Shown here piece by piece: positions 1,953 through 61,702 of a stretch of 64,000 nucleotides of DNA. The stretch covers positions 18,293,354-18,357,353 of the forward strand of contig NC_045142.1 in NCBI RefSeq assembly GCF_008831285.2. The letters run 5' to 3'. Each line of letters starts with the position of its first letter. The first letter of the stretch is position 1. Under the pieces are notes generated by a model. It was not told the origin of the DNA, made no database searches, and saw only the letters and a list, made by a program, of their open reading frames with translations. The position numbers were made by a program, and so were the translations under genes. This DNA is from Nymphaea colorata (taxonomy: Eukaryota; Streptophyta; Magnoliopsida; Nymphaeales; Nymphaeaceae).

Positions 1953-2095
1953 ATCGTTCAGTTGATTGGTTGGTTCCGTGTTGCATGACTGATTTTGCTC
2001 CTTAAGCCTAATCGCAGATCCCATGTGCAAATAATAGTCAGACGATCAACATATTTGCAGTCAACATTGTAGTATACGACCTTTCTGTCCAGTAC

Positions 2096-2809
2096 CTTTA
2101 GAACGGACTGTGCCCCAGGTTCATTGAGATTAAGCAAACCATCAGCAACGGCAGCCAAGATCTCAGCACAAAGCTTCGCAGAAGTGGCTAAAAATTGCTC
2201 CGGTGCCATTTGTTTAAGTAATAATGTATAGATATGCACCCTTTGTAATTGTGTTTTGTTATCGCTGCCTCTGTAAGAAGGAAAAACGTTCATTAACAAC
2301 CCAAATAACTGCAGCAACGAACTGAGAAAGAGAAACCATTCAACGAACTGAGAAAGACGTTGTACCTCGTGCAATTCACTGTGGGCAGCATGGGCCTTGC
2401 AACCATTCAGCTTCCGCACCCACTCATTACGAAGCTGCTGAAGAGGAAATCAGCTAGTGTTCGGATCTTCTCTTACTCATCAACCAGAGCGAGAAGAAAT
2501 CGGTGAAAGAGGGCACCTCTCCACTTAACATATTGTCAACCACGTCAGCAAAAAAGGATTTTAACATTTTAAAGCAACAATGACAGGCTCAGGACTTGAG
2601 AGAGCCTTTTGTCTTAGAAGACACTATCAACAAAAGAAATTAAGACATCTTTGCATACCTACTAAGTTATTCCTTACATGTCTGTTTCTTGACGCACTGA
2701 GAAAGACGTTGTCCCTGGTGCAATTCACTGTGGGCAGCATGGGCCTTGCAACCATTCAGCAAGAGAATGACTTCAACGAAGCTGTTGTAAGCCAAAAGTG
2801 GTGCCTTAG
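2096..2809 (-). pseudogene. Condensin-II subunit D3 (CAP-D3) gene fragment, copy A
   Basis: CAP-D3 is a HEAT-repeat subunit of condensin II, a nuclear chromosome-compaction complex; the plant protein is about 1,300 residues. One exon is clear at 2,096-2,270 (minus): it has a TTACAG acceptor, a GTACTGG donor, and encodes LLKQMAPEQFLATSAKLCAE and ILAAVADGLLNLNEPGAQSV, a conserved segment of the plant protein. The exon before it (KAPLLAYNSFVEVIFLLN, high end 2,809) is broken. Its donor-side part is present twice, at 2,343-2,410 and 2,692-2,760, around 349 bp missing from copy B, and the inner copy has lost its donor GT. No 5' part of the gene is present. The family call rests on this exon plus the C-terminal segment kept in copy B. 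Confidence 0.72.
2343..2760 (+). repeat. About 67-bp direct repeat flanking 349 bp found only in copy A
   Basis: A segment ending GGGCCTTGCAACCATTCAGC occurs at 2,343-2,410 and again at 2,692-2,760. Copy B has it once (35,320-35,388). Either a partial tandem duplication took in 282 bp of foreign DNA in A, or B lost the interval by recombination between the repeats. Confidence 0.8.
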
Positions 2810-3229
2810 CTGCAAACATGCACAATCCCAAATTCAGAATATATTAGCTTCCGCGATCATCAAAAGCTTCTGCAGATTTATGTAATGATTGGAAGGAGCC
2901 AATGTAATGATGATCAGGAAGAACCCACTCAACCTTGATTTTACGGTAGAAAACAAGATCAAACTCCATGCAATAAAGGAAAGTATAGCTTTTTGAAACA
3001 TGAAGAACAAATTTTTTTTCTTTGATGAAGAATATGATTGAAAACAGCATGTTTCTCAAAGCAATTTTTTTTGTCCTTTTTCAATAAAAACAACAATCGT
3101 AAATCGAAATTCTCCACAACAATAAAAAAATATAAAGATTTAAGCTAAATATGCTATGCATGATGTGTGAAACCATAAAGCATGATCACCAATAGTGGAT
3201 GTTGGGAGTCTTCAAAGAAGTCTCAAAGG

Positions 3230-4540
3230 GAGGGAATGGTCCCCGTATTATGAGACATGGGAGATGAAAAAGATATAAATCATCACAATGTATTGCGTTT
3301 GAAAATGAGTGGATATGTTTGAGAGGCTTCATCCATTATGTGAACGGACTACCAGTTTGGTAATGAAAATGACAACATCCTTCAAGAACAAAAAGGGGTT
3401 GGGAGATCGCCTAAGAAGCCGGAAAACATAACAAAAGATGTCAAGTTTTTTACTTTGAAATAGCTTATAAATCATGAATTTAAATCATAGGCTTTAGTGC
3501 TCGTGTTGTGCAAATGATATGCCCTTCATTTATCCTCAATACCATACAAGCATCAGGATTCATTTGTCATTAATGTTGTTGAATCTGTAGAAGGGATGTC
3601 TTTAAAGTTCCAAAATATGAACATAAAGGAATCATCCTCGACGTCTTAGAAATCAAAAAATATGAGCAGATATTGACCTAATAATTGCACATCCACAAAC
3701 GATTGTCACATTTAATTCCTATGAGTTCAGCATTCATGCTATTCATTTCTTGGCAGGCACCTTTTTTTTCCTTTTTTCTTTTCATTTTTTTGTAACAGCT
3801 TTTTGCCTTTTTTTCTTGCTTTTGATTTTTTTTTTTTTTAGGCCGACCTTCACCTCTGAGGGAATACCTCACCACCCCAGAGGCTACTACAGAGCTCCAC
3901 CACTTTGGTGGTTATGTGTAGTTTTGTCACGTATCCAACCCGTTTCACCTTGCGGGTTTTCAATATGCCAAAAGTTCATAAGTCATCATCTTCGCAGCAT
4001 AGACATAAATCACCTTTATGCCTACCCAGTACTCTCGATTACTGACCCAGAGGAACGACTACACAAGCCCCGAGCCCACCCCTCAACTCTCATTTTGCTA
4101 CCTGCCAAGATTTTAAATGGCATTAGGATATTTTCCTGCTAAATCCTTGTAGACGCTTGATCGGTAGAGTCAATAACCTTTCCTAGTTTTGACTTTCTCA
4201 GCTTCATAGAATTTTTTCTCACCGTTCATATCTAGGATTTTTCTAGACTTGCTCTTCTAGTGATTGACAACAAAAATTTGAATCATTTTCCTTTTACTCA
4301 GAGAGGAAATAAGAATAAAATAAAGGCATATCATTTGTGTGAGAAGACATTTTTAAAATTCTTTTAATCAAAATTAAAAATTTCCTCATTCAAAAAATGT
4401 CCTTGACATCAAATGGTATGTTGCCAAAGTAGGAACTCTCCTCTATCTAAAGAGAGGAGTATTTATCAAACTAGATGGGCCTGTTAGGTAGAGCAACAAA
4501 CTTCATCAGCTCTCTAGACAAAGTATGGTCTTCTAGACAA
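3230..4540 (+). repeat. Left arm of a long inverted repeat, copy A
   Basis: About 1.3 kb that reappears in reverse complement at 14,245-15,104 plus 16,910-17,400, at roughly 70-80% identity by eye. Shared landmarks in order: GAGTGG-ATATGTTTGAG, GTGCTCGTGTTGTGCAAATG, a T/C-rich run, GGCCGACCTTCACCT, CGGGTTTTCAA-ATGCCAAAAG, and TTGACATCAAATG. It separates the CAP-D3 fragment from the FHA-AAA fragment. Several short frames exist, but stops interrupt all of them. Confidence 0.85.
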
Positions 4541-4764
4541 AAGGTTGGTTGATGGGTAATGAGTTCCCATAAATGTCATGTCACCAACAGCTTCAAAAGG
4601 TGTGCAGTCAGCAAAATCAGCACGGTATTAGTCTCCATGCAAGGGCAGCAGCAACCATTCCTCAAGGCTTAAGTAATTTCACTAAATAGTTGGTGAACAC
4701 CGTATTTATGAATCAACAAAAAGGTTGTACTCACAATCAGCAAAACAAAGCCCAAACCAGAGCT

Positions 4765-4800
4765 CTGATACCATGAAAATGTGACTGACAACAGTCACAT
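4765..4800 (-). other. LTR-type primer site remnant with short palindrome
   Basis: On the minus strand this reads TGGTATCAGAGCTC, the initiator-Met-tRNA primer-binding pattern of plant LTR retroelements. Next to it is a palindrome, ATGTGACTG-ACAA-CAGTCACAT, at 4,779-4,800. It lies about 250 bp beyond the point where the FHA-AAA gene fragment breaks off, so a retroelement insertion may have caused that break. Copy B has the same sequence near 37,393-37,430. No LTR could be delimited. Confidence 0.35.
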
Positions 4801-7192
4801 ATATACAGTGAAACTCCATGAAAAGCACCAAGGCCATGTGACCAAAAAAATAGAGAATGAAAAATATTATTGAGTCCTACCAAAAGCTGCAGAAAATGAC
4901 TTCCTCACAATGGCAAAAACAAGAGCAGTACATACACAACGAAGAACTAAGGAATAAAAAAAGAAAAAATAGAAGATAGAAGAGAACTAGCAGTTGGACT
5001 AGGTCCGATTGCTCCAAAAGGAGTCGTTGGGGCTAGCCAACTGAGCTGGACTAGGTTTTGGATGATGCAGTTGAAGCCTCCTGTTTCGGTGGGGATTTCG
5101 AGTTAATGGCAGAAGAGCAACCAATATCTGCTTCAACACTAGAAGTTGGCTTCTTCTGCTGCACAGCATCTGAATGTGAAGAACGATGTTTAACAGAACC
5201 GGATAACTTCTCAACTCTTACACCATCCTTGTTAACATCTGAATCCTTTGCCAACAGCCTCTGACCGAAATAAAGTTCTAAAGAAATTAAACAAGGAAAA
5301 ATAAATTGAAAAAAAAAAAAATCAAGACAAACATGTGCAAACACAATCATGCACTTACATTCGGTAATGAGTTTGCATCTACTATAAGCAATTTGGAACC
5401 AAAAAAGTTGGCAAGTGCTTTTGCCAATGTCTCCTGATATATGTCTGAACCCAAAAGAGAAATGACAGCATATGGTAACAACATTTGTAGATAAAACTAA
5501 CCTCCACTTAACACCCACAAATTTCCAAGAAGAGTACCTGAAGGACCCGATAACAAAATTCTTGCACTAACAGTAGGAAGATCTGTGGTAAACTTGGCAA
5601 ACTCCTTGCGCTTCAAATGTATGTAGATAGGACAAATCAACGCATTTTTTGTGTTTTCACTAAACAAAACAAGGATTATCAAACTGTACCTCAAAGTTTT
5701 GATAAATCAATACATATAAGCATATAATATTACTGCTTATCATAACAAGCAACTACAAGAAACGCTAAACATGTTTGCAAAATTAAGAAATATGATGCTA
5801 CTTTCTCGGAAACATGGGCAAGATAATGTTCAATTGCTGCTATCCAGATAGATACGAAGTCTAGTATAGAATTGTACAATTTCATTAATATTTTGTCTTC
5901 AGCTTATGGTTTATAGTACAGTTTCCTTAGCTTTATCTCTACAGTACCAATTCGACCATAACTTTTTCTCTTCATCTCAAGCACCACACTCTAATATGCA
6001 AAATACAAACTTCCTTAACTTCCTAAATTTTGTAATTTCAGGTCCATTTTGATCATGCAAAAGAAACAATCTCATACAACTTTACTCCCTAGTACCCTCT
6101 TCAAGTAAAGTTGATATGTAAATACTAGATACCAAGGTGCAACCAGATGCCCAATTTGGGGAAGGATACTGGAGATTGATTCTGCCATGCTTTTTACAAT
6201 GTTGGATGATGGATCCATGAGAGAAATGTTCTTTTTCTTGTCCCTATTCTACTTCGATTATATATAAGCAATAACATTGTATGCATGTAATTCTAGAGAC
6301 TATATAAAAGAGAGATTAGCTTGGCATATGGTGACTTAGACATAACAGATTCTCATCTCACATTTTGATATACGAAATCTCAAAAGAATAAACCAATTAT
6401 AATATGTAACAAAACAAGATATGGACACATCTCACATCATGAGACAAAAGCTAGTCTAAAGTCACAAAAAACAAAGGAATTTTTGCAGAAAGCGAATGGA
6501 TAGAATATGATACCTCAAATAATAAGGGAAGTTGTCAAATGACACTTGAGTGTTTTGACCATCCAGAATTCCCTCGCGCATGTTGTCCTTAAAAGCTTGA
6601 CATTTAGCAGACATTGGCAAAAGTGTTGATGAATCAGAATCCTTAAACATCTCCTTTCTATCTTCACGTAATTGTTTGAAAAAGGACCCACTTGGATCAA
6701 TGTCAGCTGTATCCTTCAGCATACGCATAAATTTTTTATGTGAAATGGACTTAAAGTTCCATCTGCCATTATCTGCATTCATACCACGATCCATGTTGCC
6801 AACATTAAGATCTACTCTGGATGTTTGTTCAGCTGGTGCGGGTGCATTGTCATCTAGTGGCACATCAGTTCCAGAATTTTGATCAGCACTGTCTTTCCTG
6901 GTGCAGGTATTGATATCAAGCACGGGAACAGAATCGTCTGGTACTTCAAAGGCAGTAGATAATGCTGGTCTCCGTATTGCTTGTTGGGCATCCTCATTGC
7001 TTTGGGAAGGTGGAGGCAGAAGTGACAGATCATTCCCAAGGTTTGATAGAAACGCCAATATTGATGCCCCTCCCACAGCAAGCAGATGGATCACGAGATC
7101 TTGCTTCAACTTGAACCTCATTTTAAAGGGGCACTGTGAGCCTCTGCAATACCGATAGAAGATGCAGCAGTAGGACTCTCAACTGTAAGCTG

Positions 7193-8287
7193 CTGAAAAA
7201 TCTAGACGCATTTTAAGGAATACCATGAAGCAAGGAGCAAAGAATGCCTAAAAGCAATGTTGTAAAGGCTTATTGTAACGCATATCGGTCGAGATAACCT
7301 ATACACCATATCATAAGTCATAACATACCATAGTGTATCATAAATTATTTTTTAACTCACCAAAAAAAAAAACCAGAAAAAATTTCAGAAAATCATGAAT
7401 ATTTGTTCTATATAAAACACTCATCACACACATAAATGAACATACACGATTCATCATTCATAAGCCACAATATGGTAACAACACATTAAAAGATAAAAAA
7501 AAATATCTCATAAAACAAACAGAAACTTATGGTAAACTTTAGAAAACAATAGAAATATATATAAACCTTGAAACTGAGAGATCGTATATCTTCTATATAA
7601 GAAAAAACACAAAAGACTTCTTTTTCCAAACATGAACGGGTTTCCCACGAGCAAATCTTCCTCTAAAATGACACTTTCTCTCTCAAATTGATGATTTATT
7701 TGGCAATTTCTCTCCAAAACCAGCAAAACTCTCTCCCAAAGCTCTCAAATGTGTCAGAAATGGAGAAGGGGTAGTTTTAAAAAAAAAAATCAATCAAAAG
7801 GTGCATCGTGCCCCTTTTTTAAAAATTGCACCGTATCATAAGACAAGGCAAGATATGGTCAAAACATATACGACACACATGAAAAATGTGTATGATATAT
7901 AATCAGCCAGGTTGCCAACCTATATGATATGTATCGTACAACACGCCTCCATATCATATAATGCAGCAGCCTAGAAGAAAGAACCTTAGAATTCAGCTAC
8001 TTCAGAGCTAACTACATAAAATTATAACCCAGAGATCAGACTATTTTGTGCATACTGCATACACATGTATTTCTATCAATAAACAGATGTGTGGCGAAAA
8101 GAAAAACAAAATAAAATTTTGATAAGATATGCAAAATGTTCTGCCACCATGACTAGTTTGTTAGACAGAGACACATGTCCAGTACCAAGTTAATGATAGA
8201 GAGAGGCAGAGAGCACCATGAAGTCCCATAGAACCAAATCTTAAGTTTAGTAAGCAACAGTGTGTTCCAGTAGCAAGTAAAGGATAC
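7193..8287. other. AT-rich intron of the FHA-AAA fragment
   Basis: The 1.1-kb intron between exons 6 and 5 (minus-strand gene). The part 7,260-7,960 is full of CATATC/GATATG words and looks like an old inserted element, but no terminal repeats or target duplication could be delimited. Copy B has the same sequence at about 39,885-40,590. Confidence 0.4.
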
Positions 8288-9209
8288 ATAAGAATGGTTG
8301 CCAGATGAACTAAACACCAGCTCATCCCCAGCCCAAAGGATGACATCTGAGTTCTTTTTGACAGGCTTTCCGTTGACTTCAATGGATCCTTTAGCTCCTG
8401 CATTTTCCAATATACTGGTGCATCCTTCCTCCCGCTGTTCCCATCACCAATAATGATTCCAGAGAAAACATGCCAGTCACAAGTTTAAGATAGTATTTGC
8501 AGAAAACAAGATAAATATATGCTATCTTGCAAATAATGTCACAAATAAGTTTAAGATAAATTTTAAGATTACCTGTACAAACTTCAGTCGACAAAGAACT
8601 GAACTCACAGATGAATCCTTCAAGTACAAGTTGCAGCTACGACTTTGACCAACCGTGAAAACAGGACCATACATGAGCAAATGAGGATTCTGAAAAAATA
8701 AAACTTGCAAAATTTCAGACTACATTAAAAAAGCAACACACAATTGACTAATACTTCCACCCTGTGTAATAAATCTGGAATTCTAATTTCTAAATCAACA
8801 TCTACAGCCCAAAAAGAAATGCGCACTGTAGAAGCATCATAAAGAGGAGGGAATAAACAGACTGAGGCACAATTGATTTCCTAGCTTTTAAAGGAGCAAT
8901 AACTTTAATCTAATCCTGCAGACAAATGTCTCCAAATCTCACCTTCAGAATATGATATCACACAAAAGTTAGCCAAGTCCCTAAAATCTAGTTGTACTAG
9001 TTGGTTTGAATCACTCAAAGTTGGTCAACTAAAACAAAAGAAAACAAAAAGAATGGAAACACAACATTAAAATGCCAAACGTAATAAAGACAAAATACCA
9101 TTATGTATAAACACATGTTTTTCTGTTATTGTACATATATACATATACAAACACATATCGCGCAATGTTTTAAAACTCAGTGACTCGGGACTCGACTCGT
9201 CCATTTACG

Positions 9210-9270
9210 ACTCGTGACTTAACGGGTCAACTTGATGACCCAGAACGGGTCAACTTGATGACCCAGACCG
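9210..9270 (+). repeat. 22-bp tandem repeat in intron 3
   Basis: CGGGTCAACTTGATGACCCAGA occurs twice in tandem between 9,222 and 9,268, and each unit contains the near-palindrome GGGTCA-ACTTGA-TGACCC. Copy B has the same pair at 41,851-41,897. No function is evident. Confidence 0.6.
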
Positions 9271-11534
9271 AGTTTCAATCAATGTCAGACCATCAGAGGG
9301 GATTCTCTTTTCTGTTTTCTCTTTCTATTTTCCACAATATATATAATCAGTATTATAGTACTAACTCAGTGGAGATTATCTTTTCTCTACATTTCTTCAG
9401 ATTTCTGTTTAACTACCAGAGTCACCATGTTGGCTCCTTAAACAAAAAACAAACAGCAATGGAAAATGTTATGTGCCAATATGCTGGATAACATCACATC
9501 TCAAGCATCAAGGTTATTTAAGAGAAGCAAAAAGGGCAAATTCATTTTGGATATATGGGAGAAAATATCTACCAGACGGACCAAGAAGCCCAACACTAAT
9601 TAGAAGACTTGAAGTGCCAGCCACTAGGCCACTTGAAGATTGCTTAAATATGAAATAATGCAATAAAAGCAAGGTAATGGAGTTTAAACCATTATACATC
9701 AAAACTCCTAAAACCTTCCCACTAATGTGGCAACACTGTATGCATTATCCACTAGTGCATCTCAATACTAATTTTCTAGGTGATTGAACTGTCTCAAGAC
9801 TCTCAACTCCCAACAGCTTGTGCAATTTACAACAATAAATTACCTTGAGAGCTTCTATGTATGAAGTAACTAACTGGTCAGAATTCGCATATTGAAAGCA
9901 TTCTCCAACATACTCGGAACCAACCACAACAATAAGTCGCATCCAGTTGCCAGGCTTCCTCTGACATGCCAGGTTTCAGCACAATAGGCTAATGAGGATG
10001 CTCTTTTCTACTCAAGTACCTTAGGTCCTTAACCTCATATAAATAACAAAATTGATTGGGAAGATGTACACTACTAAGCGATAACATTATTAGATTAACT
10101 ATAAAAGACGGTCTCTGACACTGGTTTCTAATCATTCACTTGCCCTCATCCGTTTATATAATTGGCTGACCATGGAAAGATGCCATAAATGAACTTAAAA
10201 TATATTCTTGACCACAAACTAATACAGCATTAGCAAAACACATCCAAACACAATGTCGTCGTACATGGAGGCATAATGGAATTGACTTCATTTCTGTCAT
10301 CTACCTACTCCTTACCATGACCTTATGCTGCCCTTCATATGTTGACTTGCGTCCTATTTGAGAGGTCTGTGAAAGGCCTGAACCAAGCTACACCTCTTAG
10401 AGAACTCATTTTCATACACTGACGACAAATGATAATCCTAGAGTTTACCTTCTACACTGTGAAATAGGACCAAGCGACAAGGCGAATCTCAAACTCTTGA
10501 ATCCAGTACAGAGAAAAAAATTATTAAGCTGATAACTGAGGAAACTGCTTCGCCTGAAACAGACATAGACTTCCAAATTTCCCGTCCAGAGCAACAGCAT
10601 ACAAGACTAACGATCTTGACGAGCATGACAGCGTAATTCAAATCAAGGCACCATATTTTATAAACACGGAAATCCCTGAAGGGACCTCAAGTCCATGTTA
10701 GTTAATGAATCAGAACAACATGCAACCGACCCAGCCGATGCCTACAACCGAAATCTGACCAAATTGCGGCAGAAAAAACCTCCCTATACATGACCTACAG
10801 CCGAAGTCAGGAGAATCAACAAAACAATGTACTCGATCAGCAATGAGGAAGTGGATCGGGGAACATTACATACCTGCGGATACTGTGATATAAGTCTTCC
10901 CCATGCAGTCAACGATTCCAAATTAGGCGTCCTTTTCTTCGACCTATTATTCCATGTCGATGGCACTGTCTTCAATTTCTCCACCTCCATCGGCGCAGAA
11001 CCTACAAGCCCAGGGTAAGCAAAACGGAAAAGGATTAAGGAAAGCAGGTTTTCACAATCATCGTTCTCCCCAAGTGGCACACGCAGAACTCGGGATACAA
11101 ACCTGGTGAAGGAGGTGGCATCGCAACCGGTTTGTCGACGGAGGCATCTGGATCGGAAGCTGGGGTTTCAGCCGGTGCCGGATCTTCCACAGAACCGGTC
11201 GCCGGATCAGAGGGGAGCTGGTATCGTGAAGACGACGACGCCAATTCCTTAGAGTTGAGCACATCGTCCCAGGGTGCTACGGGCACCTCTTTCGGATGCG
11301 AGTTCTCCGCCTGATTCCCCCAATTCAAGCCCCAAAGGAAAACAACCCCCCAAGAAAAACACAGAACCCAGACGTTGGGTTTCAGTAGACAACAAACACA
11401 AGTATGGGTAAACAATAACGAACAAGAATTGGGAAAGCTTTGCTTCATCCGAATACCTTGAGACGCTTGCCGCTTGGCGCCGGCGACGGCGTAGAAAGCT
11501 TCGCCGATGAAGAGCTGCGCCTGGTGGAAACCAT

Positions 11535-13320
11535 GACTCCCTTCTCTGATCGTGTTCCCTTCTCTCCCCTTTCTCCTACCCTTCTCCCCCACTTTCCTCC
11601 TCTCTGCGAGGACGAAAGTCGGTCGCTCTTCCTCTTTAAAAGGGAAGACGGGTCAGCCGCTATTTGTAAGCAACAAAGAAGGAAATACCATTTGATATTA
11701 AAAAATGACAGTGATGAGTCCTAATCCAATATTACAAGTAATTAATACGGATGAGACGATCGAGATTGAATCGGACGTGGAAATGTGAAAGAAAAAAAAA
11801 ATCTTCGGCGTGCGCTTGGGCATGGTCGAGTTCGACCCGTTTCTTGGTTTTTCTTTTCCATCGTTTTTCTTTTCCATCGGTTGTGGACTGAAAATGTTTT
11901 CTTAGTCGGTTCTTGGAAACTGTTGAAAGGTTTCCTGTTTGCATTTGATATGGAGAAAGCTTCTGATTTGTTTGTCTCATATCAAGGATGGGAATGGAAT
12001 CCTGGATGACCCTTCCAATGATGTTATTAAAAAGATGTGTCTAGGATGGCGGTCAGTTTCTGGATCTCTCTTTATTGTATCTGGTTTAACAAAGGATTCA
12101 ACTTAAATCTATGGTTTGAACAAATAGCGGATTTAAGAACCATGGTTTTTTGGATTGTTTGATGAGACGGGAATTTCATAATTCTATAATTAAAAATTTC
12201 CCTTTTGAGGAAATGAAAATTGCGTCATCGAACAAAGAATTTTGGTTTTAAAATTATAGTGTCATTCTTGAATCAAAATTTCGGAATAAAATTACAATTT
12301 CTGAAATGTATAATTTATTCATCTTTATTTAACGCACATGCCATGGCAATACATCATTTTCAATTTTATAATCAAAGCTCTAGACTATCAAATAAAAAAT
12401 AAAAATAAAACTGGAGTTTTCATTCTAATTCCAATTTGAAGTGCCGTCAAACACGCCTTTATGGTCACCACTATCTTTTAAATGCATTGATCTCAAGTTA
12501 GAAGAGATGAGATTTGATTTGAGATCCATGAACTTTAAGACGCAAGGCTTACAAAGCACATAATATTTGCATCTTTCAAGTATAAGATGTTGGATCATTT
12601 TATAACTCAATTGTTTAAAATCCTCGAACTTAATATCCTAAGATCTTGAATTGCCATGGATCTAAGATTCGAGGTAATCAAAATACTCTATACCTTCATA
12701 TGGTGATGGGGTTTATGACAAGCTATATAATTTACTTTTGTATTAATTTCTTGAGGTTGTGTTTGCTTGATGGCACAAACCATCCCATGATGCCCTATCA
12801 CAGAACAAGACATGGGCTACTCCTATTCTCTCCTGCACTTACGAGAGTTCATTTAATTTGTTGTCTTTAGAACAACATGTCCTATTATACTGTTTTTCAA
12901 AAAAAATGCAATGGTTCCAAGATGAATAGTCTTTGTTTGTCCTTTTCTTTTTCATTTCGATGAAGTAAGACAACATGTACCGACTGTTTATTGTTTGACG
13001 CTGCTTGTTATAACAGGTACATAATTGTTGTCTATTGTTTGGATGTGCATAAGACACGTACACATGAATATTTGTTTTGCTAGTTGAGCTTAAAATACAA
13101 TTAAGAAAATGACGTTGACCTTCTTGCGATGCTTAGTATTGTGTTTGATTGATGTGGTAAAAGAACACTGAATTTCATAACATTGTCTTATCAATTTCCT
13201 TTAGCCATTCAAACATGATAGATTGGGGTATTTGTAAGCATGAAAATAGTTGTTCATCAGTAACTTGTATGGTGTGTGAGATCTCCAGGATCTTAAATCC
13301 ATGGATTTAAGGTGGACCCC
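11535..13320. other. 5' flank of the FHA-AAA fragment, present only in copy A
   Basis: No gene seen. The first 100-200 bp would be the 5' UTR and promoter of the minus-strand FHA-AAA gene. The rest is AT-rich, with short frames of no recognisable content. A 20-bp perfect palindrome lies at 13,292-13,311, and a C run at 13,316-13,331 marks the point where homology with copy B resumes. Confidence 0.5.
13292..13311. repeat. 20-bp perfect palindrome beside a rearrangement breakpoint
   Basis: CTTAAATCCATGGATTTAAG is its own reverse complement. It ends about 10 bp before the C-rich junction at which copies A and B become homologous again. Confidence 0.8.
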
Positions 13321-14244
13321 CCCTCCCCCCCTTTCCATAAAAGAAAAATCATACATAAATAATATTTCAGATTTTTAAACAGCGAGATTTTTATCAGGTA
13401 TAATACGGCGAGTTTGAAAAAAAAGAAAAATGATAAAAGTTTAAAAATTTAGAAAACTAAAAATGGGAGAAAAATAAAATAAGTGAGAAATAACACAAAC
13501 ATCAAAAGGTAAGTAGATTTGCAACCAATAAAAATGAAAAAAAAAATTGTTTGACTTAAAAAAACCAAAAAACGCACAAAAAAATGGGTTAAAAATGCAT
13601 TAAAGACACGTTAAAAGCGCATTAAAAACGTTTTAACGTTTTTCTTTTAAAATGTGATTTTAAAAAATTTTAAACAGCTTGTTAATTTATCGTGTTTTTT
13701 TTGCATTTTTTCGAAAAAAAAGCATTTTGTGTGACTATGGACTTAAACTGAACATCTTCCAAAATTCATCTTTTTATAAACTCTCTCGAATTTTAGATTT
13801 GAGGCTATCAAACACAATCTAAAACAACAAATATCTTGGGTGGGTAGATAAAAGATAATAGCCTTATTGTTTTTTGTTTTGTTTTATGTGTTTGTAGTGC
13901 GGGTAACTTTTGTGGGGGACACGAGCCAAAAAAATCATGTCCCGAACCGATTGAGTAATGCCCCACATTCCACCATTGAATAGTGGTCCTCAAGTCCAAC
14001 TCTCAATGTCATTATGAGAATAGTGTCCATAAGAATTGAACATGAGACATGTCTAATATGTGCCTCTTGCCCTACCAGTTATAGAGAGAGAGGGAGAGAG
14101 ATCACTTTGCAAATAAGGGTTCAACTTAGTAAATATAGGTTCACTTCTTCGTTTTTAGGACGTGTTTATTTTCTTATAAACTGTTTTATTTATTTTTGCT
14201 TGAATTCTTGATTTATTTAGCATAAGGTGCAAGGAAGGAGTGAT

Positions 14245-25860: not shown

Positions 25861-25879
25861 CTTCAGCTTTCATGTCCTT

Positions 25880-51400: not shown

Positions 51401-51526
51401 TACTCCATCGTAACTGATGCAGTATGTACATTTGTGTCGCATGCCAAAACGGTTGGCTTCCAATATGTCAAAGGACTTCTCAGTTGTGAGGTGGTGGCCA
51501 CAACAGTAAACCTTCAAAGATCTTCC
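48467..51526. other. Non-coding right part of copy B
   Basis: Matches 18,841-21,729 of copy A with no recognisable gene. Private features are a tandem duplication around 50,515-50,610 (the unit containing ACTGGAAGGGAAATTGTCCC is doubled differently from A) and 140 bp at 51,109-51,248 with no counterpart in A. Confidence 0.6.
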
Positions 51527-52000
51527 TGTAAGATCATTTGGTGGGCCGACATATGTCTATGAGGAATTTCAGACATTATGGTTGTCTTAACGTAAATATC
51601 CGCTTAAGTGATTGCATTTTTGGATATTACGTCATTTTAGATGGTATGGGGTAATTTTAGAATGTATAGATACCAGTATGCAATTACGGACTCTTTGATT
51701 GGTTGAATCTGTAATTGTCCTTATTATATAATGGTAGTGGTCCCTGGGGTCGTGCAAGGGTTGCATGAAACATTGGTTTCTAGGGTTTTCATCTTTCCCA
51801 TCTGAGAGAGACCTCAAGCGCGCCGCACGTACCCTGGAAGACCGTGCTGCGATCTTCCCGTGCACCAGATCAGATGGATTCAGGTACGCTTCCGCTTCAG
51901 TTTAAGGTTTCGTTTATTTCAATGATTTAGCATGAGCATGATCCTGTTTAGGGTATATACATTTGGTTTTGTATATGCGCTATGGGGAGAAATCCCAACA
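51527..52000 (+). repeat. 5' LTR of the copia element
   Basis: 474 bp, starting TGTAAGATCATTTGG and ending AATCCCAACA. It differs from the 3' LTR at seven single bases, mostly transitions. It contains a TATA-like TATATAA at 51,725-51,731. Confidence 0.95.
51725..51731 (+). promoter_or_regulatory. TATA-like box in the 5' LTR
   Basis: TATATAA in the middle of the LTR, unchanged in the 3' LTR (57,256-57,262). This is the expected position for the promoter of the retroelement transcript; activity is inferred only. Confidence 0.5.
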
Positions 52001-52001
52001 T

Positions 52002-52014
52002 TTGGTATCAGAGC
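52002..52014 (+). promoter_or_regulatory. Primer-binding site of the copia element
   Basis: TTGGTATCAGAGCC begins one base after the LTR end and is complementary to the 3' end of initiator methionine tRNA, the usual primer of plant copia elements. Confidence 0.9.
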
Positions 52015-52099
52015 CTATGTTCTTCATTAAATCGTTGAATTTTTGGATGATTTTGTGCGTTCTTCCCTCGGATGTTCCTCATTTGGTTCTTGGGCTGCA

Positions 52100-53330
52100 A
52101 GTTTTTTCAAAAAAAAAAAAAAAAAAAATTGGTTGAGTGCGTGCGACGGAAGCCGTCGGGTTTCCGTTGCAGCCGTATGAGGACTCTAGAGGATCGAAGA
52201 ACGAGACGCTGGATCGGCGATCGTCGGTTGCCGTTGGGCAACGGCGAGCCTCCGGCGCGTTCCTGTCGGCGGCACTCACGCCGTTGGGTGCCCTCCGTGC
52301 CTCCGTCGCAGACACGAAAGAGGAAGAAGAACGAAAAGGGGACGGCTGGGAAGGCGACGGCAGGGAGAAGTGATGGCCGGCAGAGGGCGACCGCCGGCGA
52401 CTCTGCTGTCGCCGGACGGGCCCGTGCGACCCGCCGCCATCCACCCATAGTCACCGATGGCCTCCTCGCCGTTTCAGGCGCCCAAAATCAGAAAAGGGAA
52501 AATCTCAGGCGAGGGCCAAAACCGGCCGATTCCGGCCGGTTTTGGGCGGGCGATGGCCGGCCATCGCAGCGGCGACGGCCGGCCGTCGAGGCGGCACCCG
52601 CCGGCAGCCACCCACGCAGTTGGGTGGCCTGCCGGAGGATCACCCCCGCACGCCTGCCGTTCGGCAGGCAAGCGGTGGAGACGACGCCCGCGACCGCTCA
52701 AGCGGTCGTGCGGGCGGGTCGACCCGGGTCGGGTCGTGACAGACCCGATCCGGGTCCATCAGATTTAAAAAAAAAAAAAAAAAAAATTCCCGCCTCGCGC
52801 CCGAGCCCCTGCGTTTTATTTTTCGGACCGAGTCGGGTCCTGTCGGACCCGACCCGTATCCATTTGGTTTAAGTAAATCGGTTCATTTTTTTAAACCGGT
52901 TTTGGAAAAGACTCGAACCGGTTCATTACGATTCAGAACCGATTCAATCCGATTCAGACCGGTTCGGACCTTCTAGGGACCGGTTCGGACCTTTCAGATC
53001 CGATTCGGACCATTTTGGGACCGGTTCATTCATTTCAGAACCGATTCGGACCGATTCAGGGCTTTTCAGAACCGGTTCATTCAGTTTTAGAACCGATTCT
53101 AGCATTTCAGAATTGATTAAGTTGATTTTCGAACCGATTCGGGCATTTTCAGACCGGTTCATTGAGTTCTGGAACCGTTTTTAGCCAATTTTAACCGGTT
53201 CAGTGGGTTTTAGAACCGATACAGTCTAATTTTGACCGGTTTGTCCAATTTTTAGACCGGTTCAGCTCTATTTAGGGGCATGTGGGTGTTCTAGTTGCGG
53301 TTTAAGAACGATAAGGGCCACTTTAAGGCC
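52100..53330 (+). repeat. GC-rich leader and ACCGGTTC/ACCGATTC repeat array
   Basis: Between primer site and gag, a GC-rich part (about 52,135-52,760) is bounded by A-runs at 52,110-52,128 and 52,767-52,786. It is followed at 52,860-53,290 by more than 20 copies of ACCGGTTC or ACCGATTC at irregular spacing of 12-45 bp. The full form GAACCGGTTC is a 10-bp palindrome. Long frames here (for example 52,072-52,872) are products of composition and have no known domain. Such arrays could be packaging, dimerisation or protein-binding sites of the RNA leader. Confidence 0.75.
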
Positions 53331-54004
53331 GATTCAGTGGTTCTTGACTCACTTAAACACAATTATGGTATCGGTTTATAAAATTTTGGACTCTTTTGGG
53401 CCCATATCATTGAATCATTTGGTTTTGGATTCAATGAATGACAAATTTTGTAAGTAAATTTTAATTCATGTATCATGTTTTGCATGTTATTAAAATTATG
53501 GGTGTACTTTAGATGAATGTTTGGATTATGAATTTTGATCTTTTGCCATGTCTGTTGTTTTAAATGAGTACGTTTGTACTTTATGTCGCCAAAGTGACCT
53601 CTGTTGTACGAATTTGCTTGTTTTAAACATTAGATGATAGTATACTTGATCCATGCGGACAATGATCAGCCCAAAGGAGGATTGTTGTTTGGTCAGGTTT
53701 AAGTATACAGGGCAATCAATATGTGATAATTTTTTCAGGTTTCCATGTGAATAGCGAGTCAATCCAAAGATAGGCTCGTTGTTTGACAGGGTTAATCATC
53801 TATATTCATTGTTGACCAAGAATATCACTTGCAGTTAGTATTTCAATCCAAAGATTGGATATTAATGTTGCACCGGTACCTTGTGATGGGATTCAGGCCA
53901 TTGTATTTAAATTCATTTATATTTGTTATTTCATCTTTGTACATGTATTGATTGTGAGCATGTTTGGTATTTTTGTTGTTCTTTGTATAGTGAGTTCTGC
54001 TTCT

Positions 54005-55003
54005 ATGATATCTACAAATTTGAGTACTGTTCCTGAGTTAAATGGTTCGAATTTTAAGGACTGGAAAGAAACTGTTATGATTGTTCTGGGTTGTATGGAT
54101 CTTGACCTTGCATTTAGGGAGTTGTGCCCACCTCATCCAACAGATCAAAGTTCCCATGAGGATAAGCGGTACTTTGAACGGTGGGAACGCTCAAACCGCA
54201 TGTGTCTAATGATCATGAAGAGGTCAATCCCAGAAAATTTTAGGGGCTCTATTACTGAAAAGGCTAGTGTCAAGGCGTTCCTTGAAGAGATTGAAAAACG
54301 TTTTGCTAAAAATGAAAAGGCTGAAACAAGCACTCTTTTGAGTAAACTTGTGACGCTGAAGTATAAAAATAAGGGGAACATACGGGAGCACATTATGAAA
54401 ATGTCTCATCTTGCTTCAAAATTATAGGCGCTAGATCTGAGGTTACCCGATGACTTTATAGTGCATATGGTTCTTCTTTTTCTTCCACCACAGTTTGGAC
54501 AGTTTAAAGTTAGTTATAACTGTCAGAAGGAGAAATGGACTCTTAATGAGCTCATTTCGCACTGTGTGGAAGAAGATGAGAGATTGAAGCATGATAGGAT
54601 AGAAAGTGCTCACTTGGCTAGTACGCCTAAAAGTAAGAAAAGGAAGGCTATTAAGGAAATTGCAGTTGATCACGCATCCATTAAGAAACAGAAGAAGCAT
54701 AAGGAAGGCAAATCAAGCTGCTTCTTTTGCAAGGATGAAGGTCATATGAAGAAGGATTGTACTAAGTATCACGCATGGCGTGCAAAAAAAGGTACGATTC
54801 TTACTTTGGTTTGTTCTGAGGTTAATTTAATTTCAGTACCAAGGCACTTGTGGGTAGATTCAGTTGCTACTACTCACATAAGTGTTTCTGTGCAGGGCTG
54901 CCTAAATTGTCGGACGCCAATTGATGCTGAAAGATTCATCTATGAGGGCGATGACATGAAGGCGAAGATTGAAGCCATAGCAGATTTTTTGAGTTATTGT
55001 TAA
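54005..55003 (+). pseudogene. copia gag and protease frame
   Basis: From ATG 54,005 the frame encodes a copia-type gag: STVPELNGSNFKDWKETVMI, then ERSNRMCLMIMKRSIPENF, and later FGQFKVSYNCQKEKWTLNEL. A CCHC zinc knuckle, CFFCKDEGHMKKDC, lies at about 54,720-54,760. One in-frame TAG at 54,425-54,427 splits it, after which the same frame goes on. The protease start reads LWVDSVATTHIS: the catalytic Asp is there, but the usual Gly of the DSGA motif is Val (54,863-54,865). The frame ends at 55,003. Gag forms the virus-like particle and protease cleaves the polyprotein in the cytoplasm; here both are probably non-functional. Confidence 0.85.
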
Positions 55004-55269
55004 AGACTGGTTGTTATTTGAATTTGATAGAAACTTATGTAATACCGCCTTTTAGACGGAATTTGGTTGTTATTTCCTTACTGAACAAATTTGGTTATTA
55101 TTGTTCATTTGGAGGAAATAAATTTAAGTAGTTTCTGCATTCAAATTTGAATTCCACTGGTTCTTTGTCTAGTAGCGATAACCTTTATTTGCTTGATACG
55201 GTTGCTTCATATAATGAAACTTTGCATGTTACGTTTAGTGGTACTAAAAGAAAATTAGCCAAAGAGAAT

Positions 55270-56640
55270 TCTGCTATGTTATGACATTGGCGCTTAGGAC
55301 ATATCTCTGAAAAGAGAATATAAAGGCTTATGTCAAAAGGAATTCTTGAGTCCCTTGATTTTGCAAACTTTAATATCTGCACTGAATGTATAAAGGGAAA
55401 ATGAACAAACATTAAGGGGTTATAAGTTTTATTTAATCCATTCAGTAAGTCTTTCTTTGAAAGGGAAACGCCCATTTCTTTGAAGATATTGAGTTTGGGA
55501 GGTGATCAGGTTATGAACATTGTTTTTTGAAGAGGGACCTGAGTCCACTCTATTCAGAAGTAGGCAATGATGTCGATCTCCATACTGAAGAACAAACTCA
55601 ACAACCTCAAGAAAATTAAGTAGAGGTGTCACTAAGGAAATCCATATATGGACTAAAGCAAGTTTTCCAGTCAATGGTATTACAAACTTCATCAAGTTAT
55701 AGTTTCATTTGGTTTCGAAATTAATATGGTTGATGAATGTGTATACTAAAAGTTCAGTGGGGGCAAATTTATCTTTCTGGTTTTATATGTCGATGATATA
55801 TTGTTGGCAAGTAATGATGTTGGCATATTGCATGAAACTAAGATTTTTAGTCAACAAAGTTTGACATGAAGGATCTTGGTTGTGCATCTTTTGTATTGGG
55901 GATCCAAATATTTCGAGATCGTTCTCGGGGTATTCTTAGATCATCACAAAAGACCTACATTGATAAGGTGCTTCAGCGATATGACATGAAGGATTGTAAA
56001 CCATGAAAGACTCCAGTTGCTAAAGGAGACAAGTTTAGTCTCAAACAGTGCCCTAAAAGTAAAATCGAATCTAAAGAAATGGAAAGGATTCCCTATTTGT
56101 CTGTTGTGGGAAGCCTTATGTATGTTCAGGTTTGTACTCGTTTGGATATTGCATTTATCATTGGAATGTTAGGCAGATACTTAAGTGATCCTGGTATGGG
56201 TCATTGGAAAGCAGCCAAAAGAGTTTTGAGGTATTTAAAAAGAACATAAGATTTTATGCTCACATACAGGAAGTCAGACCAATGGAAGATCATTAGGTAT
56301 TCAGATTCTGACTTTGCTGGGTGCCAAGATAATGGCATTCAATCAGGTTTTGTGATTGCAGAATTTTGTCACGAGGCTGCGCATTATGTATGGTATATAA
56401 AGACCACTAAGGTTGTTGTGTGACAATAATTCAGCAGTCATATACTCTTATAACAGCCACAGTTTGTCAAAGTCGAAGCACATCGACATTAAGTTTTTTA
56501 GGCTGTAAAAGAGGGGATACAGAATGGTCAGGTGTCTTTAGAGCATATTGGGACAAACTCTATGATTTGCGGATCCGCTTACCAAGGGTTTAACACATAA
56601 GGTCTTTCACGAACATGTTGTTCGTATCGGGGTGTTATCC
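55270..56640 (+). pseudogene. copia pol remnants (integrase, reverse transcriptase, RNase H)
   Basis: Across several frames: the pre-integrase zinc-binding piece HWRLGHISEKRI (about 55,284-55,320) and a following CTECIKGK; almost nothing of the integrase core; then KFIFLVLYVDDILLAS, with the reverse-transcriptase YVDD at 55,786-55,797; DLGCASFVLGIQIFRDRSRG; YDMKDCKP; VGSLMYVQVCTRLDIAF; and the RNase H start YSDSDFAGCQDN at about 56,299-56,334. There are many stops and frame changes. Only about 450 bp lie between the integrase zinc piece and YVDD, where a complete element has over 1.5 kb, so a large deletion is present. Confidence 0.85.
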
Positions 56641-57043
56641 TTGGATGATGTGCTGGTTTAGTGGGAGTTTGTATTTTGTTTGCTCTTATGTATGGACACA
56701 TATTCAGTTTTCTGCAGAATAAAGTTTAAAGTTCTTTGGTTCCATTCTGTGTTTGTGTTTTGATCTCCATAAGGTTTTTTAAAGTTGGACCAGTTGAGAA
56801 TAGACATGTTGTAATCACATTGCATGTAATTCTCATGCTATACATCCATATCAGATCTATGTCATTGGTTATGTTAACATTTGTGATCATTGAAGGTTTA
56901 GCTAACTTTTAATATAGCGAAAGCCGCTTTGGTTATGTGTTGATATGATCATGGACGAGATTGGTGAAATGACATTTAATAAGATAGCAGTTATGAGCTC
57001 TTAAGGTTTTGTGTAATGTCTGAATGTATTAAGACATATTTGG

Positions 57044-57057
57044 TCCAAGTGGGAGAT
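57044..57057 (+). promoter_or_regulatory. Polypurine tract of the copia element
   Basis: AAGTGGGAGAT directly before the 3' LTR is the usual copia polypurine tract that primes plus-strand DNA synthesis. Confidence 0.75.
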
Positions 57058-57531
57058 TGTAAGATCATTTGGTGGGCCGACATATGTCTATGAGGAATTT
57101 CAGACATTATGGCTGTCTTAACGTAAATATCTGCTTAAGTGATTGCATTTTTGGATATTACGTCATTTTAGATGGTATGGGGTAATTTTAGAATGTATAG
57201 ATACCAGTATGCAATTACGGACTCTTTGATGGGTTGAATCTGTAATTGTCCTTATTATATAATGGTAGTGGTCCCTGGGGTCGTGCAAGGGTTGCATGAA
57301 ACATTGGTTTCTAGGGTTTTCATCTTCCCCATCTGAGAGAGACCTCAAGCGCGCCGCACGTACCCTGGAAGACCGTGCTGCGATCTTCCCGTGCACCAGA
57401 TCAGATGGATTCAGGTATGCTTCCGCTTCAGTTTAAGGTTTCGTTTATTTCAATGATTTAGCATGAGCATGATCCTGTTTAGGGTATATACGTTTGGTTT
57501 TGTATATGCGCTATGGGGAAAAATCCCAACA
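57058..57531 (+). repeat. 3' LTR of the copia element
   Basis: 474 bp, TGTAAGATC...CCCAACA, seven differences from the 5' LTR and the same length. It is followed by the CTTCC target duplication and by copy B sequence that matches 21,725 onward. Confidence 0.95.
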
Positions 57532-57659
57532 CTTCCTTCTGCAGTTCATCCATCTACGTCGACGAGTCACCCGCCATGGATAGATGCCTTGCTTTAGATG
57601 ACATGGAATCTGCACAGTAGTCTCAAAGCTATTGATACATATTGAATCTAGTTGCAATG

Positions 57660-58758
57660 AATGGTTGTAAGGCTCGATTACTGGTGGTTGGCTGCCTCTC
57701 ATCTACATGAAGAAATGGCAGCCGGGATGCACTGAGCTGATTGCTGCCTTATTTGAAATATACTACTGTAATGGCACTGGATGAAAAATTAAAATGGTTG
57801 TTAGGTTATGAGCATCTGAACATAATTCATAAGCTTGAACTTAGGGCACATCTGATCTTTATCAAGGAGTCTCAGATCTCTTGGCTTTGAATTGTGAGTA
57901 TGAGAGTTGGTATATGGTGGAAGCTCGACGTGTGTTTACTTCACAGATCAAGCACGCTAGTTGGTTTGATGTGATAGGAGTCCCCCATTGTCATAGAAGA
58001 AAAGGGGAAATGAAAAGGGCATTCATATTGTTTAGGAGATGAAATGTTGGTAGGAAGAATATTGTTCGAACCCTTTGGTGCGAAATGTTAATGCACGAAA
58101 TCTCTTGCAGAAAGCCATGTAACACCCTTAAAAGTTTAAACATGATATATATATATATATATTAAACCATCTCTCATGCTTTCCTATATACTTCTCGTGC
58201 TATCAGCGTGTGAAATCTGTATTTTCTAAGTGAAGGTCAGCTTCGACCATCTGCAGAGAAATAAGAACAATGGTCATGGAAAAGAGGTGAGACAGAAATT
58301 TTAAATTTTTAAGCATAAATTTGCAGCATCGTTAAATTCATTTAAACAGTTGAAAAAAATTCAAAACCCAATTTCTAAAATTCAAACGCTGGTGAAAGAT
58401 AGTTTACTTTTTATAACATAAATTTCGAGGGATTTAAACGGGTTAGTTTCAATAAGTGCTTTAAAAAATCATAGCTGGATGAATTGGTACTAACAGAAAA
58501 CCAGGAAAAAAAATCAAAATCCTAGAATCGTATCCAGGCTCAATTACATCCTTATTCATGAGATTGTCCAAATAATAACTTGGACTGACAATCATCAGTT
58601 ATGAGCTTTAAATTTTAAAATTCTCTAAGCAGTTCTTTTGAGTTGGGATCAGGACAATTTAAAATAGTCAAGTTTTTAACTTATAATTTGGCAGTGACAA
58701 CCAATGTTCAAAATCACAGAGATGATGAACGGCAGTGCCTCATTAAGAAACATTAAGG
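57660..58758. other. Spacer between copy B and the TOC159-like pseudogene
   Basis: No gene recognised. There is a short AT microsatellite at 58,141-58,160. This would be the promoter side of the TOC159-like gene. Confidence 0.45.
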
Positions 58759-61277
58759 ATGAAGTTTTTTGACGGTGGGCAGGGAAAATCTGATTTTATA
58801 AGTGACCCAATTGCTGAAACCCTTGGTTCTTTTGGCACGAGCTCTCTGGAGGTAGAGGATAATGGCGGGAAGTTGGGATCAATAGAGACCAAAGTGGCTG
58901 GTGGCACCAGGGTAATTGCAGAACTTGGTCGTGAATAAGTAGATTCGTCCATTATCTGCGTAGATGTTGCTGGAGTTGATGGAGATGAGGTTCGTAGCAT
59001 AGAGGAGATGAAACGAACTGTACCTTTTAGTAGAGAGTTTGACAAAGAGGCTGCGGCAACAAGTCAACATGTGAAGTACTCACCTTCCATGGATACCATT
59101 ATGGTTGAGGCTTCCGTGAGCGGTGTGGTTGGTGAGCCGGTGTATGAAGAACCTTTCATGACGTTAGGCTCCAAGGGTTCTACTGTTGCCAAGAGGGAAG
59201 ACCCCAACGGTGCTGCCTCGTGTATAAACGTCGGTTTTGGCAAAGAGACTGTTGTTTTAGATGAGGCCCTGATGGAGGGAATGGTTGAAGCTGGTTCAAG
59301 TGATGATGGTTCAACGTGCTTGGTGATTGAACCAGAGTTGGAACCGGTTTCTGAGGCAATAGATGCTGCTGACTGGGAGTTCCAAACCAGTTCCTATGTT
59401 GGGATGTGTGGGAACGATACTGAAGTTGATGGTTCTGATCCAACGGGCCGATTGCAAGACAACCAGTTAACACCCCGAACTAGTTCACAGGGGCCAAATG
59501 ATTCCGAAATTAGAAACAAGCAAGAGCTGGATAGAGCTGGATGCTGATGATGGATCAATTGCTACAGGTGACAACAGTGACGATGTGAATTTCGTCAGGG
59601 AGTTGGAGAATTTCGTGAAGTTCTCCAGAAACTCTGACGTCAGATTTGCTGAGAACGGGTCTACCGCATCTCACATCATTGAGGCAGCAGATAGTGAAGA
59701 AGAAGAAGAATATGGTGATGATGATTAAAGTGTTGTTTGATTCAGCTACCCTGACTGCTTTGTTGAAGGCCGCGAGCAATGTTAATGCCAGATCCACCTC
59801 TCAAAACCCTGCCGGTTTGGGATCATCAGTTCCGGCATTAGGTCTGTCTGCACCTCGCAGAATTAGTAGTGCGGGTAATTTTGCTTCTTCAGCCACGAGA
59901 GAATCAGAAACAGAGAACATGGATGATGAAGAGAAGAAGCTTCATGACAAGATAAACATGATCAGGATGAATTTTTTGCGCCTTGTCTACAGATTAGGAC
60001 AGTCACTCGACGAGTCGGCTGTTGCTCAGGTTCTTTACAGGTTAGCTCTTGCTGAAGGAACGAGGAATAGTAAAACTACTAGACTCTTCAGCCTAGACAC
60101 CGCTTTCCAAACTGCAAAAAAGCTAGAAGAAGATGGCAAAGAGGAGATCGACTTCTCCTGCACTATTTTGGTCATTGGAAGGACTGGAGTTGGCAAGAGT
60201 GCAACCATCAATTCTATATTTGGTGAAGACAAAGTTCCAACCGATGCCTTTCAGCCAGCTACAAGTATGGTGCGAGTGATCACTGGCATTGTGGATGGTG
60301 TGAAACTTCGAGTGATTGATACTCCAGGATTAAGACCTTCAGTTATGGAACAGCGTACCAACAGGGAATTTCTTTCGTCGGTGAAGAAATTCATGAAGAA
60401 ATTCCCACCAGATATTATCTTTTATGTCGATCAGATGGACACCTGTTCACGTGACACCAATAGTCTTCCATTGTTAGAGTCGATCACCTCTAAGCTTGGG
60501 ACATCCATATGGTTCAATGTCACCGTGGCTCTCACTCATGCATCTTCTGCACCACCAGAAGGTCCCAGCGGCTCTCCACTTCCTTATGAAACATTGGTTT
60601 CACATAGGTCGCAAGCCGTTCAGAATTCCATCCGGCAGGCAGCTGGAGATATGCGTCTCATGAATCAGGTGGTGCTTGTTGAGAACCACCCATCATGCAG
60701 ACGGAATCAACGCGGCCACCAGGTGCTGCCCAATGGGCAGAGTTGGCAGCCGCGGTTGCTCCTGTTATGCTACTCTTCTAAGATATTAACAGAAGTAAAT
60801 TCTCTACTGAGACCGCAAGATCCTGCCATCACAAAACTCTTGTTCGGTGGTCATCGTTATCGTTCAGTACCGGTTCCATTTCTGCTGTCCTCATTGTTGC
60901 AGTCAAGATCCCATCCTAGTCTTGCCTCTGCAGATCATGAGGAAGCGTACTTTGAGATGGAGGAAGAGTTGCCTGAAGCTGATACTGACGAAGAAGAATA
61001 TGATCAGCTTCCACCATTCAAACCTTTGGGAAAATCTCAGATAGCTAAGCTGCGCAAGGAACAGAGGAAGGCCTATTTCCAGGAGTATGACTATCGAGTG
61101 AAACTATTCCAGAAGAAGCAATTGAAGGAGGAATTGAGCCAGAGGAGAGAAGCCGAGAAGCCCTCTGGTTCGTGCCCAAGAAGTAGATCAGATGAATCTG
61201 ATCCCGAGAATGGGGACCCCCCTCTATTCAAGTCCCACTTCCCGACATGCTATCCCCATCTACATTTGATGGGGATA
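58759..61277 (+). pseudogene. TOC159-family chloroplast import receptor, acidic and GTPase domains, truncated
   Basis: TOC159-family proteins are GTPase receptors of the chloroplast outer membrane that bind precursor proteins (acidic A, GTPase G and membrane M domains). Here an acidic region runs from ATG 58,759 to about 59,720, then KVLFDSATLTALLKAAS, then the G domain: P-loop GRTGVGKSATINSIFGED (from 60,177), DAFQPATSMVRVITG, DTPGL (60,318-60,332), and the conserved VENHPSC and KVLPNGQSW-like blocks (here QVLPNGQSWQPRLLLLC). It goes on to EEYDQLPPFKPLGKSQIAKL and YFQEYDYRVKLFQKKQ. Lesions: an in-frame TAA at 58,936; a 10-bp tandem duplication (AGAGCTGGAT, 59,523-59,542) that shifts the frame; an extra T at 59,725; and a one-base loss in the C run at 61,218-61,223. 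After VPLPDMLSPSTFDGDK homology stops, so about 300 residues of M domain are absent. The frame 59,728-61,325 is open through the whole G domain. Confidence 0.92.

Positions 61278-61640: not shown

Positions 61641-61702
<62 letters not shown>

Follow-up and report, generated by a model that had tools for sequence, protein, structure and literature searches.

How did pieces of seven nuclear genes come to lie side by side in a single stretch of the genome of Nymphaea colorata? The window analyzed here comprises 64,000 nt of contig C5 (positions 18293354-18357353; C numbers designate contigs throughout). In it a preliminary description, made from the sequence alone, had recognized fragments of genes for CAP-D3, an ATPase of FHA-AAA type, a P4-ATPase (flippase), histidinol dehydrogenase (HDH), phosphatidylserine decarboxylase (PSD), a DnaJ protein and TOC159, taking them to be seven unrelated genes. 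All seven are indeed present as fragments, as judged from Pfam, solved-structure (PDB) and NCBIfam searches and from a relative on C10, the evidence for CAP-D3 being at the level of E 0.0066; moreover, the limits originally proposed, 1953 and 61277, lie near the real edges at 1955 and 61277. The seven are not all unrelated, since FHA-AAA and TOC159 adjoin each other in a fuller locus at C5:26.67 Mb. We conclude, with a probability of about 0.82, that the window belongs to a mosaic segmental duplicon that arose by end joining and was then multiplied from chromosome to chromosome, the copying having run from the C5:26.67 Mb locus to the copies.

Our analysis combined Pfam, NCBIfam (TIGR profiles) and PDB searches with self-BLAST of the window and with matching against the genome (407.8 Mb in 783 contigs), where the counts of matches to parts of the unit are lower bounds.

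A Common Source for FHA-AAA and TOC159

The FHA-AAA and TOC159 pieces of the window belong to one contiguous stretch of ~22.8 kb, the source of which is found on the same contig at C5:26.666-26.702 Mb. In the window, as in three further copies (C5:13.9, C5:21.1, and C10:8.6 Mb), homology starts at source position 3150 and stops at position 25955; it reaches from the 5' part of the gene for the FHA-AAA ATPase into TOC159, most of which is included, and takes in the introns. At the source, TOC159 is an uninterrupted frame of 1315 amino acids with the membrane-anchor domain (TOC159_MAD, 2.1e-115), and the FHA-AAA block runs on into AAA-domain sequence beyond the copied part. The TOC159 piece of the window (Pfam AIG1/TOC159 match, 1.1e-17) is 98.4% identical to the source. 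Pfam matches to the FHA domain are weak (0.093 and 0.022); we regard the FHA-AAA identity as firmly secured by the relative on C10, with 71% amino acid identity and colinear DNA, and by the source gene running into the AAA domain. The region 10787-11652 was at first read as a gene of its own, lying between those for FHA-AAA and TOC159; an N-terminal motif marks it instead as a candidate first exon of FHA-AAA.

The relative just mentioned lies at C10:24.28-24.31 Mb, where TOC159 and FHA-AAA are found within ~24 kb in the order and orientation of the window. It is colinear with the source over more than 30 kb, past both edges of the copied part, and the Ks between the two in TOC159 is 1.33 by a simple method. 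The peak of the N. colorata whole-genome duplication is reported at Ks ~0.9, computed with CODEML (PMC7015852). As candidates for a pair derived from that duplication, source and C10 block have their colinearity in favor, set beside Ks values of 1.33 and ~0.9 that come from different methods; their split is probably older than the duplication or near it, and the C10 block would be the older relative, an old paralogue.

Could the window, then, be the remnant of a duplicated syntenic region that decayed where it stood? Adjacency of the parent genes in the same order in related species had been named at the outset as the finding that would favor such a remnant. Within this genome it holds for FHA-AAA and TOC159, which keep order and orientation at both C5:26.67 and C10:24.28-24.31 Mb, two loci that would be old paralogues by the Ks values above, but not for HDH, whose parent lies on C1. 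However, the window is only 2.0-2.5% different from the source over the FHA part, its two cut points coincide to the base with those of the other copies, and its left junction is one found at 13 genome places, its own two included; a remnant decaying in place is hardly credible.

The adjacency of the two parents also undermines the idea that the pieces were collected one by one by a carrier, as FHA-AAA and TOC159 come from a single stretch. The same argument refutes, for this pair, the notion of seven independent captures by repeated filler-DNA repair at the site of the window. Such repair would fit the HDH piece, which is 208 bp long, has its unlinked parent on C1 and turned up nowhere else except 44 kb upstream; the CAP-D3, DnaJ, PSD, and flippase pieces, though, lie at many other places and hence were not captured at this site. 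Seven separate captures consequently seem very improbable.

That genomic DNA and not mRNA was moved, as first proposed, is borne out by the intron sequence kept in FHA-AAA, HDH, and PSD, which likewise excludes these pieces from the class of retroposed copies, marked by loss of introns and a poly-A tail. For FHA-AAA, the exon pieces are colinear with C10 and the DNA between them also matches the source. Intact exon borders had been claimed for five fragments; intron sequence is shown for these three, while TOC159 is uninformative because the source is one open frame there. One further feature bears on the order of events: an insertion of ~370 bp (reverse-complement positions 7334-7709), with an 8-bp direct repeat ATCAGAGG, is specific to the source and missing from the four copies shown (copies A and B of the window, C5:13.9, and C10:8.6). 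The simplest reading is that the source acquired it once the copying had taken place.

Founding Junctions of the Chimera

At both ends the copied stretch is joined to partner DNA. The left junction reads GAGCTGGA-C-TAGGTTTT, in which the C fits neither side and thus constitutes one untemplated base. A 36-base pattern spanning it matches 12 genome places within 3 mismatches, including copies A and B of the window, and the backward control matches none; with the C5:13.9 copy, altered by an indel at this point, the junction occurs at 13 places in all, and every one of the eight copies fetched contains it. The right junction is identical in the nine copies read (9/9). This identity of the two junctions in all copies read points to one founding event. 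The partners exist on their own too: the left one without source DNA at 3/3 loci read (C10:8.628, C3:5.201, and C3:5.218 Mb), and the right one without TOC159 at 4/4 (C4, C8, C9, and C10:6.04 Mb). It is because the fuller source, the lone partners and 13 places with the left junction survive in one genome that both founding junctions are resolved at the level of single bases.

End joining and filler DNA are recognized by little or no homology at the junctions, perhaps a few untemplated bases, and the lack of a target duplication. The founding junctions have precisely these traits, with one untemplated base on the left, a 1-bp overlap on the right and no target duplication. Transposon ends were judged by eye at these junctions, the outer ends of the copies being partly read; within this scope no inverted repeat, Helitron end, direct repeat or target duplication was seen, in agreement with the earlier statement that classical transposon ends are not visible. 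Helitrons have a 5' TC and a 3' CTRR with a hairpin, and insert between A and T, whereas the copied stretch starts with TAGG and ends with GATA (hairpins were not computed). Nor do the founding junctions show the terminal inverted repeats (TIRs) with 8-11 bp duplications that define Pack-MULEs. The constant 3' end of Helitrons is lacking on the right in the window, C5:21.1, C10:8.6, and C5:13.9, the left not being so compared.

Might a giant Helitron or TIR element nevertheless have captured the gene pieces and carried the whole unit? The dispersal of copies over several chromosomes and their star-like divergence would suit such an element, and gene fragments that keep introns are its typical cargo. 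Pack-MULEs resemble the window in having intron-bearing fragments of several genes side by side, but the window is far larger and has none of their marks at the founding junctions; gene-capturing Helitrons resemble it in multi-gene fragments, retained introns and dispersed copies, but no Helitron end was seen at the founding junctions. In addition, the right outer limit varies among the four copies compared, and no Pfam transposase or helicase was found in the frames scanned, which cover part of the frames and stretches. Comparison with other copies further led us to reject the edges 1955 and 61961 as transposon ends; they are the limits of the window's own copies. We therefore rate a giant element as improbable. 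No carrier would be needed, given that a segmental duplicon appears to have spread and that its founding junctions look like end joining.

Distribution and Divergence of the Copies

The recurrence of the block at many genome places indicates that the cluster of fragments is not due to chance. The chimera was located on C5, C7, C3, and C10, as well as on two small contigs (C56 and C84), and matches to parts of the unit lie at least on C5 (in several clusters), C7, C3, C10, C4, C8, C9, C6, C14, and small contigs. In an alignment of the FHA part containing eight sequences (seven copies plus the source), differences range from 1.3% to 3.1%, the closest pair being copies A and B of the window (1.3%). 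The corresponding tree joins C5:13.9 to C7 (support 0.99) and C3 to the window (0.89); copies do not cluster according to chromosome.

The outer limits on the right differ in the four copies compared. The window departs from the shared sequence at 61961 and C5:21.1 does so earlier; C10:8.6 departs before C5:21.1 and picks up again at a later point of the C4 locus, while the C5:13.9 copy continues together with C4 and C8. On C7, the TOC159 piece is split over two strands with an inverted FHA block between, as would be expected from an inversion of ~17 kb. C4, C8, and C14 hold tandem pieces of the flippase module. Copies of the unit also lie ~64 kb apart on C5 (21089395 and 21153639) and ~62 kb apart on C7 (11474199 and 11535999), a spacing that suggests larger nested duplications. 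At C10:8621308-8631462, a ~520-bp unit of the CAP-D3 side (window 2418-2930) is repeated head to tail.

Are these copies real? Two of them sit on the small contigs, and the region of the C5:13.9 copy contains 100 N, as might be expected if haplotypes or mis-joins had produced assembly artefacts. The window itself is free of N, though, and the copies are 1.3-3.1% apart on C3, C5, C7, and C10; furthermore, copy B contains a copia element whose empty site is seen in copy A. The chance that the copies are artefacts is accordingly slight.

The TOC159 copies are decaying. Stops and indels occur in all three TOC159 copies tested, one stop and three indels in the window and others of their own in C5:21.1 and C10:8.6. 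For FHA-AAA, exon-like and intron-like DNA differ from the source by 2.4% and 2.5% in copy A, 3.0% and 2.6% in C10:8.6, and 3.3% and 3.2% in C5:13.9; with exon limits that are approximate, no constraint is seen in these three copies. Averages for copy B and the later C5:21.1 windows were left out of this comparison, and the C5:13.9 value for 24159-25200 (0.21) out of that for TOC159, all being inflated by alignment across deletions or insertions.

Several observations weigh against our conclusion. The distance from source to copies (1.8-2.8%) is not larger than that among copies (1.3-3.1%), and in the tree the source branches inside the set of copies (support 0.74); it is the completeness of the source, not the tree, that supports the direction of copying. 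The intergenic DNA beside TOC159 is 6.1-6.6% from the source and only 2.0-2.5% between copies, while for TOC159 itself the distance to the source is 0.8-2.0% for the window and C5:21.1, 1.3-1.6% for C10:8.6 (4.1% over a part of 145 sites) and ~4.7% for C5:13.9; one simple clock does not fit this mismatch. The uneven divergence is due in part to constraint on the source gene; for the remainder, exchange with the source at a later time is a possible cause. The three loci with a lone left partner share regions of C10 and C3 with copies of the unit and may not be untouched ancestors. The copying step is deduced from its products, which do not separate template switching from two-ended break repair, and the copies are known from the assembly alone. 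There may, lastly, be a very large element with remote ends, as the stretches read take in no outer end on the left and a minority of those on the right.

Architecture of the Window

Segmental duplications are defined as blocks longer than 1 kb with over 90% identity, present in two or more places and not consisting of one known transposon. The blocks of the window exceed 1 kb and 90% identity, recur in at least two places, and no single known transposon explains them; because they combine pieces of several ancestral loci at junctions common to the copies, they form a mosaic duplicon. Two tandem blocks make up the window, 1955-21853 and ~21855-61961, plus the stretch with HDH and PSD (table 1). 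Most of 1957-21853 is repeated at 34934-57660, in aligned pieces that are 96.8-98.9% identical by self-BLAST, and this is why CAP-D3, FHA-AAA, and the flippase are each present twice.

Table 1. Features of the window; coordinates count from its first nucleotide.
Feature	Position	Strand	Remarks
Copy A of duplicon	1955..21853	+	Both ends truncated: without DnaJ part (left) and TOC159 (right); seen by self-BLAST; genome matches start at 1955-1957
Copy B of duplicon	21855..61961	+	Left modules 21855-24322 and 30478-34990, then 34934-61961; broken by local insertion and copia element
Founding left junction, copy A	5051..5052	.	FHA-AAA source DNA abutting CAP-D3-type repeat; one base not matched by either
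Founding left junction, copy B	37683..37684	.	Same join as copy A
Founding right junction	61277..61278	.	TOC159 source to partner DNA; 1-bp overlap (one A common to both)
FHA-AAA ATPase, 5' part with introns, copy A	5052..11700	-	FHA part 8156-8443; probable first-exon region 10787-11652; colinear with C10:24.2969-24.3027 Mb and C5:26.69 Mb source
FHA-AAA part, copy B, shortened	37684..42312	-	Followed by 650-bp piece also present at 23223-23873
TOC159 fragment with GTPase domain	58758..61277	+	Cut before membrane-anchor domain; one stop and three indels versus source
Right partner DNA	61278..61961	+	Also on C4, C8, C9, C10 without insert; window departs shared sequence at ~61961
CAP-D3-like exon fragment, copy A	1958..2449	-	PDB condensin-2 D3, E 0.0066; 43 genome matches, many being pieces of unit copies
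CAP-D3-like exon fragment, copy B	34938..35471	-	Self-BLAST repeat of copy A
Module with flippase exon	14114..19292	+	In tandemly repeated pieces on C4, C8, C14; 1.8 kb extra here at 15105-16909
P4-ATPase (flippase) exon fragment	18087..18236	+	DRS2 PDB 8e-8; TIGR01652 7.3e-18; no Pfam match
Flippase counterpart, copy B	~47.72-47.87 kb		Probable, from self-BLAST offsets
Stretch with HDH and PSD	24323..30477	.	Absent here from C5:13.91 and C5:21.13 copies; 112-bp direct repeat at 24211-24322 and 30478-30588
HDH exon with bits of both introns	24592..24799	-	208 bp; 93% to parent C1:32.773 Mb over 211 aligned bases
PSD	29048..29578	-	Two conserved pieces; intron-like unmatched stretch between, ending in stop; TIGR00163 1.8e-7, PDB 0.0087
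DnaJ fragment	32624..33798	-	Pfam 9.6e-22
Copia-type LTR retrotransposon, frames broken	51527..57531	+	Copy B only; LTRs 51527-52000 and 57058-57531

The copia element has long terminal repeats (LTRs) that are 98.5% alike and a 5-bp target duplication, CTTCC; remnants of gag, pre-integrase and RVT_2 are spread over several of its frames. The first 1268 nt of the window are a repeat of their own: C6 has a pair of copies at 94%, C5 a partial one at 96% just upstream, and numerous small contigs have copies at ~83-86%; the single frame tested, 3-545, has no Pfam match. Rfam at gathering scores and a tRNA search gave nothing in the window.

The Other Gene Fragments

In the frames scanned, Pfam has no match for CAP-D3, PSD, or the flippase; the latter two were found by PDB and NCBIfam searches, and CAP-D3, for which NCBIfam has no match either, by the PDB search. 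The single match to condensin-2 D3 gives weak support to the CAP-D3 identity, which we keep as tentative. A match at C6:16.858 Mb was not accepted as the CAP-D3 parent gene, since it covers just 132 bp of the fragment. True parent genes of CAP-D3, the flippase and PSD were not located in the genome.

The stretch with HDH and PSD probably arrived later than the rest of the unit; parts of it recur elsewhere, for example at C10:8.70 Mb. For HDH (Pfam match 7.8e-13), the sole multi-exon match in the genome is on C1, and fragments were found only in the window and at C5:18.274 Mb, the place 44 kb upstream. PSD-region DNA is dispersed over C12, C13, C8, and C10, among others. Three small contigs (C160, C593, and C531) have longer PSD matches in single stretches, some with stops, and possibly represent contaminant DNA. 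The DnaJ piece is common to unit copies and to C7:3.78, C8:12.97, and C5:25.06 Mb. The related locus at C7:3.783 Mb also carries a DUF1977 domain, to which the minus frames of 24000-33900 of the window have no match. A DnaJ-bearing stretch of 5.9 kb is shared at 94% by C7:3780501-3786500 and C8:12965501-12971500, with PSD-region DNA ~12 kb further along on C8.

Evolutionary History and Implications

Which sequence of events could have produced this arrangement? A contiguous stretch of ~22.8 kb would have been copied from the fuller locus at C5:26.67 Mb and joined on the left to a repeat with the CAP-D3 fragment and on the right to a repeat that is also on C4, C8, C9, and C10, either by end joining at broken DNA or by template switching during repair. 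The older repeats thus joined would already have held gene pieces. The chimera would then have been amplified, spreading later through unequal crossing-over and ectopic repair between repeats. Changes specific to the window are the tandem doubling into A and B, the stretch with HDH and PSD, and the copia insertion in B. The gene pieces would be passengers throughout, with TOC159 in decay. It is possible, although we think it unlikely, that the chimera moved from chromosome to chromosome as a single unit and in a burst, for example as extrachromosomal circular DNA or by repeated long-range template switching; if so, a duplicon of gene fragments would act like a mobile element while neither encoding nor ending like one.

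Mosaic segmental duplications, of the core-duplicon type, are best known in primates. The N. colorata duplicon shares with them large blocks of more than 90% identity from several loci, common junctions, spread within and between chromosomes, and tandem plus inverted copies. It differs in belonging to a plant and in the persistence of a fuller source and unjoined partner loci; no core gene is seen to play a part in it. With the filler DNA of plant double-strand break repair it has in common the short HDH piece with intron ends and a junction overlap of 0-1 bp, but it differs in the length of its main piece, 22.8 kb, and in its later amplification. The duplicon is ordinary in kind and unusually well resolved.

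A cluster resembling many gene captures can hence arise from one copying event of 22.8 kb together with older repeats. For the annotation of this genome the result is a caution, as such fragments should count neither as genes nor as cargo of Pack-MULEs or Helitrons.

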